Below are positions 26,050 through 57,033 of a stretch of DNA of 64,000 nucleotides, in pieces. Made by a program: the position numbers and the translations under genes. The stretch is from an uncultured archaeon (GTDB lineage: Archaea; Thermoplasmatota; Thermoplasmata; Thermoplasmatales; Thermoplasmataceae): positions 692,457 through 756,456 of the forward strand of contig CP009479.1 of the NCBI GenBank assembly GCA_000965745.1, given 5' to 3'. A model generated the notes under the pieces. It was not told the DNA's origin. It ran no database searches and worked only from the letters and a program-made list of their open reading frames with translations. Numbering within the stretch: position 1 is the stretch's first letter; each line of letters opens with the position of its first letter.

Positions 26050-26979
26050 TCAATAGGCATGTGTCATCTCTCTCATGATGTTGTAGTACTGCACCTTCAG
26101 GGCGATCTCCTGAACTATGTAATCAGACCTGACAGCCTTGATCACCTCACCCATTGTTCTCTTGAGACCTGAGAAATATATCTCTACATTCCACCGTTTC
26201 CCATACTGTACCGATTCCTTCCACCTCTTCTCAGATGTCCTTCTGATCTGTCTGACAACCTTAGCCCTTGCCGGTGATCCCCTGGATTGTGTGGAGGCGT
26301 TCTTCCTTGGCGGTATTATTGTGCCATGCCCAAAGTCATTGAATATCTTCTTTGAATCATATCCCTTGTCTCCGTATATCCTCAGTATTCTGTCCCTGAC
26401 AGATTCCAGTATCTTTCTGCCCTCCTTCGCATCATGGACATGCTCATCGGTGATGGAGAAGGAGAGCACCGAGACATCATGTATTGAGATGACCGCATGG
26501 AGCTTGTTCCATCCTCTTCTGCGGCGATTCCATTTAGTACCCAGATAATCGCCCCTGATAGTGATCTTGAAACCGGTGGAATCAATGGCACAGTCCACCG
26601 GTTTCCCATCAGTATGGGGAAGAGTTGGCACGATCTTCCTGATCCTCCTGAATATGTTGGTATAGCACACTGTCCTGATTCCCGAGATCCTGGAGAATAC
26701 CCTGGCAATTCCTTCAAGAGACCTGAAGGGAACGCTGTACAGTGCTCTCAGCTTCGCAAGGAATGTTATGAACGCATTTGGTGTTTTGAAGGGATGTCCT
26801 CTCTTTCCTCTGTTGTTATCCTGCAGCAGGTTCTTCCAGTTCATGAGGAATGAAGGGTCCATGAGGTCTTCAACCCTGTTCACCAAGGATCGGTTGTACC
26901 TGTCATGCCTTCGGTTAGAACCAACCCAATATCTTCTTGTGCTTCTATTGCCTATTGCAGTGATTTGTTGTGGTGTCAT
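26050..26979 (-). CDS. IS5-family DDE transposase
   Basis: 309 residues, uninterrupted. The N-terminal part HPFKTPNAFITFLAKLRALYSVPFRSLEGIARVF is the usual region before the core. Catalytic acids lie in VDCAIDSTGFKIT (first Asp), ILRIYGDKGYDSK (second Asp) and WNVEIYFSGLKRTMGEV (Glu). The ATG at 26979 lies in the loop of a perfect 10-bp hairpin, and a second hairpin lies upstream, so expression is probably damped. Confidence 0.9.
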   Translation of the reverse strand: MTPQQITAIGNRSTRRYWVGSNRRHDRYNRSLVNRVEDLMDPSFLMNWKNLLQDNNRGKRGHPFKTPNAFITFLAKLRALYSVPFRSLEGIARVFSRISGIRTVCYTNIFRRIRKIVPTLPHTDGKPVDCAIDSTGFKITIRGDYLGTKWNRRRRGWNKLHAVISIHDVSVLSFSITDEHVHDAKEGRKILESVRDRILRIYGDKGYDSKKIFNDFGHGTIIPPRKNASTQSRGSPARAKVVRQIRRTSEKRWKESVQYGKRWNVEIYFSGLKRTMGEVIKAVRSDYIVQEIALKVQYYNIMREMTHAY

Positions 26980-27092: not shown

Positions 27093-28351
27093 GATGGTGT
27101 GCGTGAATTGCTGTAAAAATTGAAAAGGGTCCTGCAAGATTTGGATGTGAGTTGACCCAAAAATGCAGGACCAATTGAACATGGTGGAGGACCTAATTAG
27201 AGGTTTCCTCAAGGACAACAGAGAAGGCAAGAAACAGCTGATCGAGTGGTTTCTGAACGAAGTCATGGACAGGGAAGCGATGGATCAGATCAGGGCGAAA
27301 TGGTACGAGAGATCTGAGCAGAGGAAAGCACACAGGAATGGCAAGAGGAAGAGATCACTGAAGACATCGGACGGCGATCTCACTCTGGAGAAGCCTCAGA
27401 TACGCGAGTTTCCATTCGAAACTCAGGTATTTAACCGGTACAGCAGAGTCGAGAGAGCAGTTGAATCAGCAATCCTAGAATCGTACATACAGGGTGTCTC
27501 AACAAGGAGAGTGAAGAGCATTGTTGAGAGCCTGGGAGCGGGGAAGGTATCCCCGTCCTATGTCTCATCACTCTCCTCCGATCTGGATCAAAAGGTGAAG
27601 GAATTCCTTGAGCGTCCCATCGAACAGCCGATAATGTACATGTATGTGGATGCCACATACATCAAGGTACGCCAGGACTCAAGGTACAGAAGCATGGCCT
27701 TGTACATAGCCGCCGGTGTGAGAGAGGATGGATATCGTGAAATTCTAGGCGCAAGACTGTACGATTCTGAAACTGAGATAGATTATGAGTCATTCTTCGA
27801 TGATCTGAAGGAAAGGGACTGAGAGGATTAGAGCTGGTGATATCAGATGGCCATAAAGGAATCAGGGAAGCAGTACTCCGATCATTTCCAGGTGCATCAT
27901 GGCAGTTCTGCCATGTGCATTTCATCAGGAATCTGATGAAGAAGGTCTCCAGGAAAAGATGGTCATCAGTCTCACTTATCGTGAAGGAATCACTGGAGAA
28001 TCCCTCACTCATGCCACTGGCACAGCAGGCCTTGATCGATAATGGGATGGACAGAGCTGCTGAGATGTACGATAGATGGTCGGATTCACTGTACAACTAT
28101 CAGTCCTGTCCACAGCAGCACTGGCGCAGGATAAGGACAACAAACATGATGGAGCGGTTGAACTATGAGGTCAAGCGACGCACAAAGAAGGTTGGTGCGT
28201 TTCCATCTGAGAAAGCATTGATCAGGTTAGCAGGTTCCATTCTAATGGACATGAATGAAGAATGGATCACTAGGAGAAAGTATTTGAGGATCGAGGATTT
28301 GCACGATCAGTAGGACTCTGATCAATTCTACAGCAGTCTCTGCACATGACC
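27093..28351 (+). mobile_element. IS256-family insertion sequence, copy 2 (1259 bp)
   Basis: Same ends as the copy at 4910-6168. Flanked by a perfect 8-bp duplication TACCTCTT (27085-27092 and 28352-28359). The sequence is clearly diverged from copy 1 at many positions, so the two were not formed by a recent duplication. Confidence 0.9.
27163..28313 (+). pseudogene. IS256-family transposase with mid-gene frameshift
   Basis: The frame opens at the ATG at 27163 with the intact N-terminus (MQDQLNMVEDLIRGFLKDNREGKKQ) that copy 1 has lost. It breaks at about 27815, where one base is missing compared with copy 1 (GAAAGGGACT against GAAAGAGGACT). The rest, 27837-28313, is open in the next frame and holds the second catalytic Asp (VISDGHKGI) and the C-terminus. 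As written it cannot make a full transposase. Confidence 0.85.
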
Positions 28352-29604: not shown

Positions 29605-30762
29605 TTAAGTTTGCAACAGTATGTCGATGTTGTCTAACACCTCATCAAGTTTTCGTTTAATCCTTAATCTGTACCTATTCCTTCTATACATCAGAACGGT
29701 TCTTATTGCATCTTGTAGGTTATCCCTTTTGCAAAGATGGACAAATTCTAATCCATTTGCCTGTTCTCTATACTCAGCAAAATCTATTGCTACAGTTTCA
29801 ACTTCAAAGAATATTGCTTGTTCTAGTACTCCAGAGTGGCCGCCAGGAGTGTTATATGGAAGTATCAACAGATCAGATTTCGTATAAAGCGACAAAATTT
29901 TCTTTTCGTCAATATATCCTAAGTAGCTACCAATTATATCGGAGAATTCATCTATAATTTTCATGAACTGCTTTTCGTATAACGGGAAGTGTTTATTGAT
30001 CCCTCCTGATATTATAAGATTGAATATTAGTCCTTCATCACTAATTTTTGACAACGCTTCCAATGCAGCTCTTAGGTTCTTTTGTGGCCCCCAGAAGCCG
30101 TGCAAGAGAACCGTTGGAACATCATCATTTCTCTTGTTTTGAAATTCAACAGTATCTAGTAGATCATTTAAGAACAAGGTGGGAATCGCCTCAAGATACC
30201 TGCCACTTGAATATCTCACACGGTTTAAGCCAATCCTCTCGTCAATCGCCTTCTTATAAAGCTCTACTAGCACAATGGTATCAATGAGCTTGAACATCGC
30301 TTTTTCAATAAAACCTAAGACCCTAGACCTAACTCTATCATAGAAGGTGTCATAACCAAGAAGCGCGACATTGTTCGTATACACTGAGTTGTGGTAGACG
30401 ACCCTCAGGCCAGGCGTGCGAAAAATGGCGGCCATGGTGATGGGAACGAGAAGGCCGAATAGATTGGGGAGTGATGTGGAACCGAAACCGGTCGGAAGTA
30501 TGTTGAAAATAATCCTGTCGTAGTTAATTCTCCTTATCTTGAATAAGGTCAGAACAGATAGGGCGTCACCATACCGATAAGTCTCAATGACCCTGATTTT
30601 CTTGTGATGATTCTTTACGTGGGAACCTTTGTCCGAATAGGGACAGAATACATCAATGCTCTCCACCTCCTCATTCAGGGCCAGGAGAAACACTATCGAT
30701 GCTCCCACCGTATTAAGGCCCCTACCGTGATCGAGAAAGTCACCCACGTATGCTATCCTCAA
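29605..30762 (-). CDS. Family-4-like glycosyltransferase
   Basis: 385 residues, a GT-B fold. It opens MRIAYVGDFLDHGRGLNTVGASIVFLL. The donor half starts PTVLLHGFWGPQKNLRAALEAL, typical of GT4 phosphate-binding loops. It continues to LLILPYNTPGGHSGVLEQAIFFEVETVAID (about 300-330), where a Gly-Gly-His-Ser-Gly loop and the Glu of LEQA stand at the donor site. This is more divergent than the other GT4 genes here. It reads away from the 12-bp repeat array behind its start. Confidence 0.75.
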   Translation of the reverse strand: MRIAYVGDFLDHGRGLNTVGASIVFLLALNEEVESIDVFCPYSDKGSHVKNHHKKIRVIETYRYGDALSVLTLFKIRRINYDRIIFNILPTGFGSTSLPNLFGLLVPITMAAIFRTPGLRVVYHNSVYTNNVALLGYDTFYDRVRSRVLGFIEKAMFKLIDTIVLVELYKKAIDERIGLNRVRYSSGRYLEAIPTLFLNDLLDTVEFQNKRNDDVPTVLLHGFWGPQKNLRAALEALSKISDEGLIFNLIISGGINKHFPLYEKQFMKIIDEFSDIIGSYLGYIDEKKILSLYTKSDLLILPYNTPGGHSGVLEQAIFFEVETVAIDFAEYREQANGLEFVHLCKRDNLQDAIRTVLMYRRNRYRLRIKRKLDEVLDNIDILLQT

Positions 30763-30851
30763 TAGAGGGATAAAGAGACACAGTGATTAAAATATTCCTC
30801 TTGAGAAATACTTAAATATATAGGTGTCCGGTAGCGCATGAATATCCACTC

Positions 30852-30950
30852 ATGATCGTCCGGATTCATGTCCGGAACCCCGTCCGATATACTGTCCGTG
30901 TTGATGTCCGAGCGTACGGATCATGGCTGATCGATCCCATTTCAATGTGA
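30852..30950 (+). CDS. Possible 32-aa peptide with VRxx tetrapeptide repeats
   Basis: Short frame starting MIVRIHVRNPVRYTV and continuing RVDVRAYGSWLIDPISM. It contains five units of Val-Arg-x-x, encoded by the 12-bp DNA repeat. A TATA-like TTAAATATA at about 30812-30820 lies upstream. Valine is always GTC while the third base of Arg varies (CGG, CGG, CGA, CGT, CGA). That fits either a protein constraint or a conserved DNA pentamer. It may not be translated. Confidence 0.25.
   Translation: MIVRIHVRNPVRYTVRVDVRAYGSWLIDPISM
30858..30917. repeat. Five GTCCG motifs at exact 12-bp spacing
   Basis: GTCCG begins at 30858, 30870, 30882, 30894 and 30906. The seven bases between copies vary. A sixth copy lies out of phase at 30826. 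The spacing is close to one helical turn, as in iterons or stacked operator sites. It lies about 330 bp upstream of an HTH/coiled-coil gene. Confidence 0.75.
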
Positions 30951-31243: not shown

Positions 31244-32854
31244 ATGAATAATTTTGATGTTAATCTTTATGGAAAAATAGCCAAAATAATATCCCTTCAT
31301 ATCCAGGGATTTTCAGTAAGAGAAATAACTCAAAAGACCGGCAAGGCAAAGAGCACAGTGCAGGACTACATCAATAGATGGCGTAGTCACCAGCTGTCAG
31401 CCCTCAGTGACGCCGTGCCACTCGAGGAGGAGCTTATCGAGCTATCAAGATACACCAAGGAGAATGGCATCCCCCTAGAGAGTGTGAAAGAAGCCCTCAC
31501 GCATCAGGGGATAGTCTCAGACCTCGGTATTGATTCAGAGCCATACTACAAGATACTTCTTTTCCTCAAGGACCAGCGGGAGCCTGTTGCAGTTATAAGT
31601 GAGCTGTTCTCGGTCATCCACGAGCTTGCATTGTCGGGGATAACGCCTTCCAAGCTGGCTGAGGATGTGCGTGCTGCTAATGAAGGGATCAATGACGATA
31701 AGAAGCTTCTGAGAGATCTTCAGTCTGAGAACTCAAGGCTGACAGAGGAGAACGCGAAACGGAAGGAGGAGAACAGGAAAGGTATGGAAGAATACTCAGA
31801 ACTCAAAGGCTGTATCCGGGAGAAGCAACAGTCCCTTAATGACATTGAAAAAAGGCTACTGGATAAGAATGATACCGTTGAGAGGGTGACAAAACTTGAA
31901 GAATTCATGTCCAGGCATCACATAGAAGGTGAGGAGCTGATAAAATTTTCAGACAATGCAAAGGCCATGGGATACGATGTCCGCCTCCTGTCCGGCATGA
32001 AGTACATGAACGTGGTGGGGGACAAGAATGGCCTAACTCATGAGGAGCTGGGGTCGCTTGTAGAGGACTGGAAATACCTGTCTAACCATGGTGTAAACAG
32101 CAGCGGAATAAGGCATATGGCCAATAAAATGAGGTCTTCGGGCGTCCAGGAATCCGACGTCGTGAAGAGATTCGTTGAATATTGCCGGAACATGGAGGCG
32201 CATGAAGATGAGCTGCGTGATGTCAATGGACAGGTTGCCACGGCACGCAAAGAGCTGAAGAAACTAGAATGGGATAGAACTAGGGAGAAGGAGAAATGGG
32301 TGAAGGAGATTGCCACCCTGGACCTAGAGAAGAAAGAGTATGAGGGGGAGATAGAATCTTTGAAGGCCGAGCGCGACGAACTGTCCGACGCAATGGACTT
32401 TAGGAACAGCCAATACCAGGAGGCTGAGAATAGGGCCGCTGATGCCCTTGAGAGGCTAGGTGTAGTTTCCGATTACAGTAGGGGGATCTCAGACCTTCAG
32501 AAGAGGATTGAATCCCTTGAGAGTGAACGTGACAATCTAGTTTCAGGAAACCCCGAGCTAAAGAAGATTCGTGACGAATTAAACGATGGCATCACCCTCG
32601 GGAGGAGCATCAGGAAGGTCTTCAGGTCTGCTGGCTCAAATGCAGGATACCTTCTCGAGGGAGGCGCAAACATTCCGGAGGAGGAGGGCGTAATACATGT
32701 TTCCCTTAACAGCAATAAGAACAGGAAGGCGGCGAACGAGGTCTTCAAGATCCTGTTTGAAATAGTATCACGCTACGATGTAATCATTTCACATGGAGGG
32801 ATTCCATCCGGTTTTCCTGAAAATGCTGAACTTCAGAAGCTTCACAGCTGCTGA
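31244..32854 (+). CDS. HTH/coiled-coil protein, ended by an in-frame TGA
   Basis: 536 residues. Residues about 10-48 (YGKIAKIISLHIQGFSVREITQKTGKAKSTVQ) are a resolvase-like helix-turn-helix. About 150-215 and 325-430 are long coiled coils rich in Glu, Lys and Arg. The C-terminal region (GVIHVSLNSNKNRKAANEVFKILFEIVSRYDVIIS) looks globular. The frame continues past the TGA at 32852-32854 with the same character to 33289. The architecture suggests a DNA-binding structural, segregation or replication-associated protein of an accessory element. I do not recognise the family. It is GC-richer than the glycosyltransferases around it. Confidence 0.65.
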   Translation: MNNFDVNLYGKIAKIISLHIQGFSVREITQKTGKAKSTVQDYINRWRSHQLSALSDAVPLEEELIELSRYTKENGIPLESVKEALTHQGIVSDLGIDSEPYYKILLFLKDQREPVAVISELFSVIHELALSGITPSKLAEDVRAANEGINDDKKLLRDLQSENSRLTEENAKRKEENRKGMEEYSELKGCIREKQQSLNDIEKRLLDKNDTVERVTKLEEFMSRHHIEGEELIKFSDNAKAMGYDVRLLSGMKYMNVVGDKNGLTHEELGSLVEDWKYLSNHGVNSSGIRHMANKMRSSGVQESDVVKRFVEYCRNMEAHEDELRDVNGQVATARKELKKLEWDRTREKEKWVKEIATLDLEKKEYEGEIESLKAERDELSDAMDFRNSQYQEAENRAADALERLGVVSDYSRGISDLQKRIESLESERDNLVSGNPELKKIRDELNDGITLGRSIRKVFRSAGSNAGYLLEGGANIPEEEGVIHVSLNSNKNRKAANEVFKILFEIVSRYDVIISHGGIPSGFPENAELQKLHSC

Positions 32855-33289
32855 AAGGATGCGGATAAGCTTGAGGAGACTCTTGAAGAAATGTCTGGAG
32901 ACAGTATCACGATAATAATGAGGATAATGAACACATCTGATTCAGTGCCGGAGTGGTTCCGCCCAGCGATGGATCAGGCTGGTCGGAGGACCTTAGAAGA
33001 AAACATCAGAAAGAAGGCGAGTAAGGCATTTGAAAGACAAATCGATGAAGGCATGATTACGGTTGCAGGAGGCGGCACCATTAGTATTCATGATAAATTT
33101 AACGTAGAGTACCCTACAGAAGAAGACACCCCAGTATCTATCGCCATGGTCTCTGTGTCCTCGGTACCGCAGTCACTCAAGAACGGTCGTGATTATGTGG
33201 AAGCCATCACTCCATCTGAGATCAGGATAGAGTTGTGCAACGCAATCATATCCATGATGAGATTGTGGCTGAAATTTCAGAGTAACTGA
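32855..33289 (+). pseudogene. C-terminal continuation of the HTH/coiled-coil gene
   Basis: Same reading frame as the upstream gene, separated only by the TGA at 32852-32854. It reads KDADKLEETLEEMSGDSITIIM, then a 130-residue domain (VPEWFRPAMDQAGRRTLEENIRKKASKAFERQ and ISIHDKFNVEYPTEEDTPVSIAMVSVSS). It could be a separate protein from the ATG at 32891, but there is no good ribosome binding site and only 36 bp of gap. A nonsense mutation is the simplest reading. Confidence 0.55.
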
Positions 33290-46503: not shown

Positions 46504-46906
46504 TATTGAATAAATCAGGCAATATTCTTAACCTGAGATTATTAAAAATAAGGTTTCTTAATCAATAGACGTTAGTGCGATCTTCCCCGTGATTTTGGAT
46601 GTTTTTGCACATCTTCTACCTATGTTACTACTTCTCTCTTTTTCATTTCAAACATCCTTTTGAATGATGAATCAATCAGCGACATCTTCCTGAAATCTCT
46701 ATGTTTTTTAATTCCTCTGGTGAAAGATTATTTAACATTCGTTAAAGAGTAAAGAGGATTTCGAATAACATCCCCAATCACTGTAAATGCCGGATCATAA
46801 TTCCTCAATTTTGTCGGTTTAGAATTCCCCAGGATCGCCGGTTTAAAATTCCCCATGTGTTTGATAGAGAACGTGGTGAATTTTGCTCGGCAGTGAGGGG
46901 TGGAGA

Positions 46907-55891: not shown

Positions 55892-56038
55892 ATGAATTCG
55901 CAACAGTCTATACCGATCTTGACAAAGAGAGAAACTCATTCTCTATTGAAAGAGTTAAAATTTGATTTTAGAGTTGATTCTCTAGACAAAGTCATTAAAA
56001 TCTTGATTGAAGAACACAGACGGAGGAGTATTTCTTGA
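55892..56038 (+). CDS. 48-aa RHH-like/antitoxin-like protein
   Basis: Starts MNSQQSIPILTKRETHSLLK, continues ELKFDFRVDSLDKVIKILIE and ends EHRRRSIS. The pattern, a short strand then two helices with VDSLDKVIKILIEEHRRR, is that of small archaeal antitoxin-like RHH proteins. Its TGA overlaps the TTG start of the integrase gene, so the two are coupled. It may regulate excision or the divergent promoters. Confidence 0.6.
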   Translation: MNSQQSIPILTKRETHSLLKELKFDFRVDSLDKVIKILIEEHRRRSIS

Positions 56039-57009
56039 ATGAAAGGGATTTTCAAAATAAACTCCAGGAATATCGGATTTGGGCAATGACAATGGGGAGA
56101 TACTCTCCTTCAACTGTAAAACGAGCCTTAAGAAGAATACGAAGTTTTTCTCGTTTAATTGACTTATTTAATCCAGATCAAGGCAAGATTCTAGATTTTT
56201 TTGCCTCTGAAATAGAGAACAGGACAAAGCCGCATACTATTAACAATCAGAGGAAAGATCTATCATCGTGGTTCAGATTTCTCGGTTTAGATATAGAATT
56301 GCCCAAATTAAAAGAACCTCCGGTTCCAGATCCTTGGATTCCAACAAATACTGAAGTAGAGATAATCATACAAGCTGCCGGTCATATGAGTACAAGAAGG
56401 GAGGTCAATATCAGAAATTCAATAATTGCGCATATTGCTTTCTTTGGTGGTGCTCGAATAGGCGAAATTGTACAGATAAACATCTCCGATATCCAGGAAA
56501 ATGGAATAAGAATCAGATCTGAGAAAGTAGAAGCAGAACGTATCATAGGCCTACCTGATAAAATTATGAACGATGTCAGAAAGTATATCAAAGATTACAG
56601 GCCAAACACAGATCAAACAGCACTTTTCACAACACCAACAGGAAGAATGACCTATGACTACATCAGAAAAATCGCCAAAAGGATAGGGGCTTTCACTGGC
56701 ATCAAAAAATTCCACTGGCACGCTGCGAGGCACTGGTGCGCCACATCCCTTCTAAAAGGGTATCACGGAGCAAAACCACTGGACATTCGCATGGTCCAAA
56801 TCCATCTCGGACATCGGTCACTTCGGACCACTCAGCGCTACACCCACTTTTCTCAGTATGAAGTTGCGGAGGTGGTAATATCCCGCCTCAGGGATATATT
56901 TCAGGGAAGTGGAAAAATGACGGAATTGGTATCGATGTACGAATCTGGTAGTGGACCACATGGGGCTGCCCGGATTTGGACCGGAGTCTCAGGCTCCCAA
57001 AGCCCGTAG
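56035..57009 (+). CDS. Tyrosine recombinase (XerC/integrase-type)
   Basis: 324 residues from a TTG at 56035 with GGAGGAG 8 nt upstream. The N-terminal SAM-like core-binding domain is about 10-85. Catalytic residues are Arg in AFFGGARIGEIVQ (about 142), His-x-x-Arg in WHAARHWCATSLL (about 233), His in IHLGHRSLRTTQRYTHFS and Tyr in QRYTHF (about 264). The last 22 codons run through the 3' half of the tRNA-Pro gene on the opposite strand. This is expected when an element carries its integrase across the attachment site. It is intact, so the element may still be mobile. Confidence 0.9.
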   Translation: MNERDFQNKLQEYRIWAMTMGRYSPSTVKRALRRIRSFSRLIDLFNPDQGKILDFFASEIENRTKPHTINNQRKDLSSWFRFLGLDIELPKLKEPPVPDPWIPTNTEVEIIIQAAGHMSTRREVNIRNSIIAHIAFFGGARIGEIVQINISDIQENGIRIRSEKVEAERIIGLPDKIMNDVRKYIKDYRPNTDQTALFTTPTGRMTYDYIRKIAKRIGAFTGIKKFHWHAARHWCATSLLKGYHGAKPLDIRMVQIHLGHRSLRTTQRYTHFSQYEVAEVVISRLRDIFQGSGKMTELVSMYESGSGPHGAARIWTGVSGSQSP

Positions 57010-57033
57010 GATACCAAGCTACCCCACAGCCCC
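56962..57033 (-). tRNA. tRNA-Pro (anticodon TGG)
   Basis: Reads on the minus strand GGGGCTG...CAGCCCC as the 7-bp acceptor stem, with discriminator A and no encoded CCA. The anticodon arm is CGGGC-TTTGGGA-GCCTG with TGG in the loop. The D-arm contains TAGCTTGGTA, and the T-arm is CCGG-TCCAAAT-CCGG. The 3' half is overlapped by the end of the integrase gene, making it the likely attachment site. Confidence 0.9.

Follow-up and report, generated by a model that had tools for sequence, protein, structure and literature searches.

Five GTCCG pentamers set at exact intervals on an archaeal chromosome likely serve in cis as a DNA site for the protein encoded by the adjacent gene, the long form of a protein with an HTH domain and coiled coils. 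The recurrence of arrays with 11-12 bp spacing upstream of nearly every long-form homologue in relatives strongly supports the DNA-level (operator- or iteron-like) explanation put forward by the sequence-only reading, together with its link to the HTH/coiled-coil gene. The window analyzed here is a stretch of 64,000 nucleotides, part of one 2.23-Mb contig, and positions given without a locus name refer to it.

The GTCCG array and its surroundings

The array lies on the forward strand at 30858..30910, with pentamers starting at 30858, 30870, 30882, 30894 and 30906, so the exact 12-bp spacing first noticed from the sequence alone was confirmed. Three triple GTCCG units at a 12-bp step were observed, whereas none of 100 dinucleotide shuffles gave three such units. 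Background rates were taken from 464 kb of the same genome, that is, the window plus 20 sampled stretches (400 kb). Within them the GTCCG array was the sole case of any exact pentamer repeated five times at a constant period of 7-40 bp, and an exact pentamer repeated four times at a constant period was found once. The pair GTCCG(N7)GTCCG occurs at one further place in the 2.23-Mb genome. Because the array and the surrounding intergenic DNA are single copy, a multi-copy transposon end or MITE was ruled out. The array is not a freshly duplicated minisatellite either, since ten pairwise comparisons of its 7-bp spacers, counted by hand, gave 18 identical positions out of 70 (26%), which is the chance level. 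The nearest background case consists of four CATAT pentamers at 12 bp (CATATGATTAAC units; L283:10084-10140, at about 1.51 Mb of the genome), directly behind a TATA-like box and flanked by a primase-like gene and a gene of 312 aa; it has the appearance of an operator or iteron belonging to a plasmid-like element that has integrated.

A TATA-like box, CTTAAATATATA (30811..30822), stands about 36 bp 5' of the array and could serve either the forward strand or the divergent glycosyltransferase-like gene on the reverse strand (29605..30762), a gene whose match is below the Pfam cut-off and whose start is 96 bp from the array; a similar gene occupies the equivalent place in G012. A lone additional GTCCG (30826..30830, forward strand) precedes the array by 32 bp, not in phase with its units, and inside the HTH gene the same strand carries two copies 11 bp apart (31979..31994, starting at 31979 and 31990) and a single one at 32383. 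Between 30600 and 33289 (2.7 kb, a region picked post hoc) there are five same-strand GTCCG outside the array against 0.8 expected (P = 0.0014). A decayed gene was considered for the gap at 30.92-31.24 kb, which gave weak matches only.

The HTH/coiled-coil gene (31244..32854, forward strand) was recognized from its Pfam HTH match, its homologues and a low-confidence structural model. At residues 13-54 its product carries a homeodomain-like HTH (HTH_23, PF13384) that resembles the domains with which Sleeping Beauty transposase and gamma-delta resolvase bind DNA. This domain is followed by a helical region and then by long coiled coils; a single-sequence AlphaFold model of low confidence (mean pLDDT 54.5) predicts helices at residues 135-224 and 306-404, and the homologues show many coiled-coil Pfam matches. 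The gene is interrupted by an in-frame TGA (32852..32854), which may reflect a genuine nonsense mutation, an error in sequencing or some other cause. A tblastn alignment of the intact 692-aa homologue of G015 passes through this codon in one frame, and the same-frame continuation (32855..33289, forward strand), listed as a separate 132-aa ORF at 32891-33289, has clear homology to the C-terminal region. The copies in G010 and G011 are likewise broken, and the long-form gene therefore appears to decay often. Literature searches, limited to sources other than subscription journals, turned up nothing on this family.

Three other features of the window deserve mention. A 324-aa ORF resembling a tyrosine recombinase (56035-57009, forward strand) overlaps a tRNA-Pro gene (56961-57033, reverse strand), possibly marking the integration site of a mobile element. 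A Mutator-family transposase in two frames (27163-28313) lies beside a DDE transposase (26050-26979). Finally, a 24-bp spaced repeat (AATTCC...CGGTTTA) is present at 46799-46870 and at L279:14246, and elsewhere in the genome also reversed; it is probably an interspersed repeat.

Arrays beside long-form homologues in relatives

Profile searches of the order and the class yielded ten long-form loci, with strong E-values for the N-terminal 130 residues and a similarity elsewhere that is inflated by the coiled coils. When the DNA 5' of these genes was scanned without bias, nine of the ten loci and five of the six protein lineages showed an array with five units or more, always upstream, with a period of 11 or 12 bp and an array-to-gene distance of 226-526 bp. 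The sequence-only reading had stated that a lack of the array next to this gene in close relatives would count against it, and the outcome was the opposite, with motifs that differ. It had also proposed looking for GTCCG(N7) arrays near the homologues; the arrays are there but the pentamer is not. This literal form was wrong in detail because the motif changes with the protein lineage: GTCCG in the window (five units, 12-bp step), TACGG in G015 (five units, steps 11, 12, 12 and 12) and, with the same steps and one imperfect unit each, in G010 and G111, CCAT in G012 (five units, steps 12, 11, 12 and 11), TGTCT(A) in G089 (nine units, step 11, some imperfect) and TTCAA(A) in G073 (seven units) and in G076 and G033 (six units each), these last three with a step of 11 and a final step of 12. 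No significant array was detected upstream of the broken gene of G011. The CCAT array is built on a 4-bp motif, and 4 of 860 control windows, from two low-complexity loci, reached an equal score. A literal GTCCG array was absent elsewhere in the 117 genomes of the order, and among the matches listed for GTCCG(N7) in genome and viral collections most were bacterial contigs and uninformative.

Several controls bear on how closely the arrays are tied to the long-form gene. Exact pentamer chains of at least five units at 10-13 bp were found in 0 of 860 overlapping 900-bp windows of the same genome, and at the relatives' loci the sole windows with such chains were the arrays themselves. Each array tested is single copy in its genome. 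Short-form paralogues (about 330 aa), which form a separate clade in the tree, had no array in any of the 12 cases checked, and none was seen in G026, G030, G048 and G043, the genomes sampled from the same genera that lack the long gene. Among these, G026 has a divergent 440-aa relative without an array, and G043 gave one single-mismatch match, no more than the reversed-pattern control. From these controls we conclude that the arrays are specific to the long-form gene. A conserved short-form paralogue of about 330 aa has a metallo-hydrolase-like gene as its neighbour in many family f3 genomes (L358-L367), again without an array.

Concerning the evolution of the units, in the two groups with close relatives that were aligned, 2 of 55 motif columns were variable against 15 of 71 spacer columns (Fisher P = 0.004). 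The array of G073 has exactly one 11-bp unit more than those of G076 and G033. G015 and G111 belong to different genera and yet share the same motif and N-termini that are 94% identical, which indicates that the motif follows the protein and not the species. Ten loci with five independent motif types are too few for a formal test of covariation between HTH and motif. In G089, three reverse-orientation copies of the motif (AGACA at 321, 332 and 345 of the L317 reverse complement, region 320-350) lie in the stretch from the direct array to the gene, at steps of 11 and 13 bp, and could allow looping; in the other lineages reverse copies between array and gene were at or near background.

The long-form locus is patchy within the order and near-identical across genera. 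The upstream gene and its orientation vary by lineage, leaving the HTH gene as the constant partner of the array, and the gap between the two is long and partly conserved. Most loci sit among glycan genes encoding glycosyltransferases, GDP-mannose dehydratase, UDP-sugar dehydrogenase, nucleotidyl transferase and flippases, a context that is less clear for G089 and G011. In G015 a 203-aa gene 3' of the HTH/coiled-coil gene (L289:8464-9075) matches the viral family phrog_10048, of unknown function (E 4e-19), hinting at a mobile-element ancestry. No homologue of the HTH/coiled-coil protein was confirmed in the viral contigs searched.

Proposed function and alternative explanations

Judging from the co-occurrence and the spacing, the long-form protein most likely binds its own array. 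Each short motif would be contacted by one HTH, and motifs 11-12 bp apart would be presented about one helical turn from each other. The long coiled coil would dimerise and so hold several subunits side by side on the array, which could build a nucleoprotein patch or filament. The protein's own gene would be under the control of such a patch, which would probably also anchor or organise the DNA around it, and the motif would drift together with the HTH until each protein lineage had its own. We infer both the cooperativity and the regulatory or scaffold role of the complex, and whether this role is autoregulation, DNA scaffolding or a partition-like tethering is less certain than the binding itself. 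Simple blocking of a promoter is not obvious, because the arrays are 226-526 bp upstream and in G015 a TATA-like box is close to the start codon (about 29 bp 5' of it). Other points that weigh against this reading are the TGA within the window's copy of the gene, the missing array at the broken gene of G011, the short motif of the G012 array and the small number of motif types. We also suggest, tentatively and as one possibility only, that this new archaeal HTH/coiled-coil family and its self-linked, motif-switching array act, without an ATPase, as a tether or nucleoprotein scaffold of surface-glycan islands that can be exchanged, with rapid co-evolution of protein and site on the chromosome as in plasmid incompatibility groups.

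A related proposal, which we regard as possible but rather unlikely, is that the array is a centromere-like partition site at which the HTH/coiled-coil protein tethers or positions the chromosome, or an ex-plasmid or mobile island, as in ParR/parC or KfrA. The 11-12 bp direct repeats, the turnover of the motif and the coiled-coil tail fit what is known of plasmid segrosomes (PMC9426499, PMC7783346, PMC7821693), a patchy locus that is near-identical across genera is expected for mobile DNA, and the neighbour of one homologue has the viral match described above. However, no ParA, ParM or TubZ was seen among the scanned flanking proteins, and in G000, G010 and G011 a long distance separates the site from the main Orc1/Cdc6 genes, at odds with a partition site near the origin. 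The gene is moreover missing from most genomes of the order, and the array is therefore no general chromosome centromere. It is doubtful that the array serves another regulator of the glycan cluster, with the HTH gene merely adjacent. The glycosyltransferases, sugar-nucleotide enzymes and flippases around most loci, and the short distance to the divergent glycosyltransferase start in the window, would suit this idea, but the upstream gene and its orientation change while the HTH gene stays, the changes of motif track the HTH protein, and an array that is unique in each genome would be odd for a regulon.

The remaining explanations place the function outside duplex DNA or deny it. An array acting as RNA, either as a long 5' leader or as the repeats of a small RNA, bound by protein or pairing with RNA, could account for the TATA-like box 5' of the window array and for the long, partly conserved gap before the gene. 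We find it improbable nonetheless: folding of the array was ordinary on both strands (z = -0.52 and 0.19), Rfam and tRNA searches gave no match for it, and a spacing near the DNA helical repeat suits duplex DNA. The peptide-level explanation that had been kept beside the DNA-level one is unsupported. Its 32-codon frame MIVRIHVRNPVRYTVRVDVRAYGSWLIDPISM (30852..30950, forward strand) does exist, open and with five Val-Arg-x-x units behind the equally real TATA-like box, but the 11-bp or mixed 11/12-bp periods of the relatives keep no reading frame, which excludes a VRxx peptide as the general explanation; the relatives' motifs are also wholly different, and the Val codon is GTC in five out of five units, pointing to constancy at the DNA level. 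A functional VRxx-repeat micropeptide is accordingly extremely improbable, and the frame is best regarded as incidental to the 12-bp period. Nor do we give much credit to a functionless, decayed tandem repeat. Whole 11-bp units have indeed been gained or lost between relatives, but the motif is exact where the similarity of the spacers is that of chance, and members of this one gene family are repeatedly accompanied by independent arrays, differing in motif, that the controls lack, which makes this explanation very improbable.

If the preferred reading of the array as the binding site of the long-form protein is correct, the five or more protein lineages found on Thermoplasmatales-like chromosomes, with different motifs at near-equal spacing, would provide natural matched and mismatched protein-site pairs, making the drift of HTH specificity directly testable by simple binding assays. 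Should the protein tether or organise DNA, it would open a way into chromosome organisation in these archaea, about which little is known, and would account for what is carried along with their variable clusters of glycan genes.

Comparison with known repeat-binding systems

The best-known protein-site pairs of this kind come from bacterial plasmids, in their segrosomes and the operators of these. The earlier remark that nothing standard explains the spacing was too strong, as direct-repeat sites of 9-12 bp are known for KfrA of plasmid RA3 and for ParR of R1 and pB171 (PMC7783346, PMC9426499). Phased short direct repeats also recall replication iterons and archaeal ORB sites, but here the motif and the period are much shorter. 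No Rep or Orc1/Cdc6 gene was found adjacent to the array, and in G000 the nearest Orc1/Cdc6-family matches are about 110 kb (a weaker match) and 630 kb (a strong match) from the site.

TubR of type III partition is a winged-HTH protein, and like TubR/tubC the system described here pairs a putative DNA-binding protein with a repeat array upstream, although a long coiled coil is fused to the HTH and no TubZ gene was seen among the scanned flanking proteins. The tubC array serves the centromere-binding protein and is also autoregulatory (PMC7762940). In the ParR/parC systems, 11-bp repeats are needed by the ParR of R1 and the repeats of pB171 are 10-bp, and between ParR families the sequence and spacing of the repeats differ in step with the binding protein (PMC9426499). 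The arrays described here share with parC direct repeats about one helical turn apart, a position upstream of the genes of the system and a motif that varies with the protein. ParR, however, belongs to the ribbon-helix-helix proteins and has the ParM filament as its partner, whereas the DNA-binding domain here is an HTH and no ParM-like gene was seen among the scanned flanking proteins.

In KfrA of the IncU plasmid RA3 the HTH is N-terminal and leads into a long alpha-helical coiled tail; its operator OK consists of five 9-bp direct repeats, partly in opposite orientation, which lie upstream of its own gene and overlap the -35/-10 promoter elements, and the protein forms filaments on this operator, while KfrA proteins are poorly conserved in sequence (PMC7783346, PMC7821693). 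The long-form protein likewise appears to combine an HTH with a long helical coiled-coil tail, according to the low-confidence model and the coiled-coil Pfam matches, and has short direct repeats upstream of its own gene. Pfam searches with the proteins of the window, G015 and G012 gave HTH_23, HTH_29 and Sigma70_r4-like matches and no KfrA_N. It further differs from plasmid-borne, bacterial KfrA in residing on archaeal chromosomes, in an additional C-terminal region and in repeats spaced at 11-12 bp and placed 226-526 bp upstream, apparently not over the promoter as in OK. Although they belong to neither family by the tests made, the array and its protein resemble KfrA and ParR/parC in anatomy and may well work like them.
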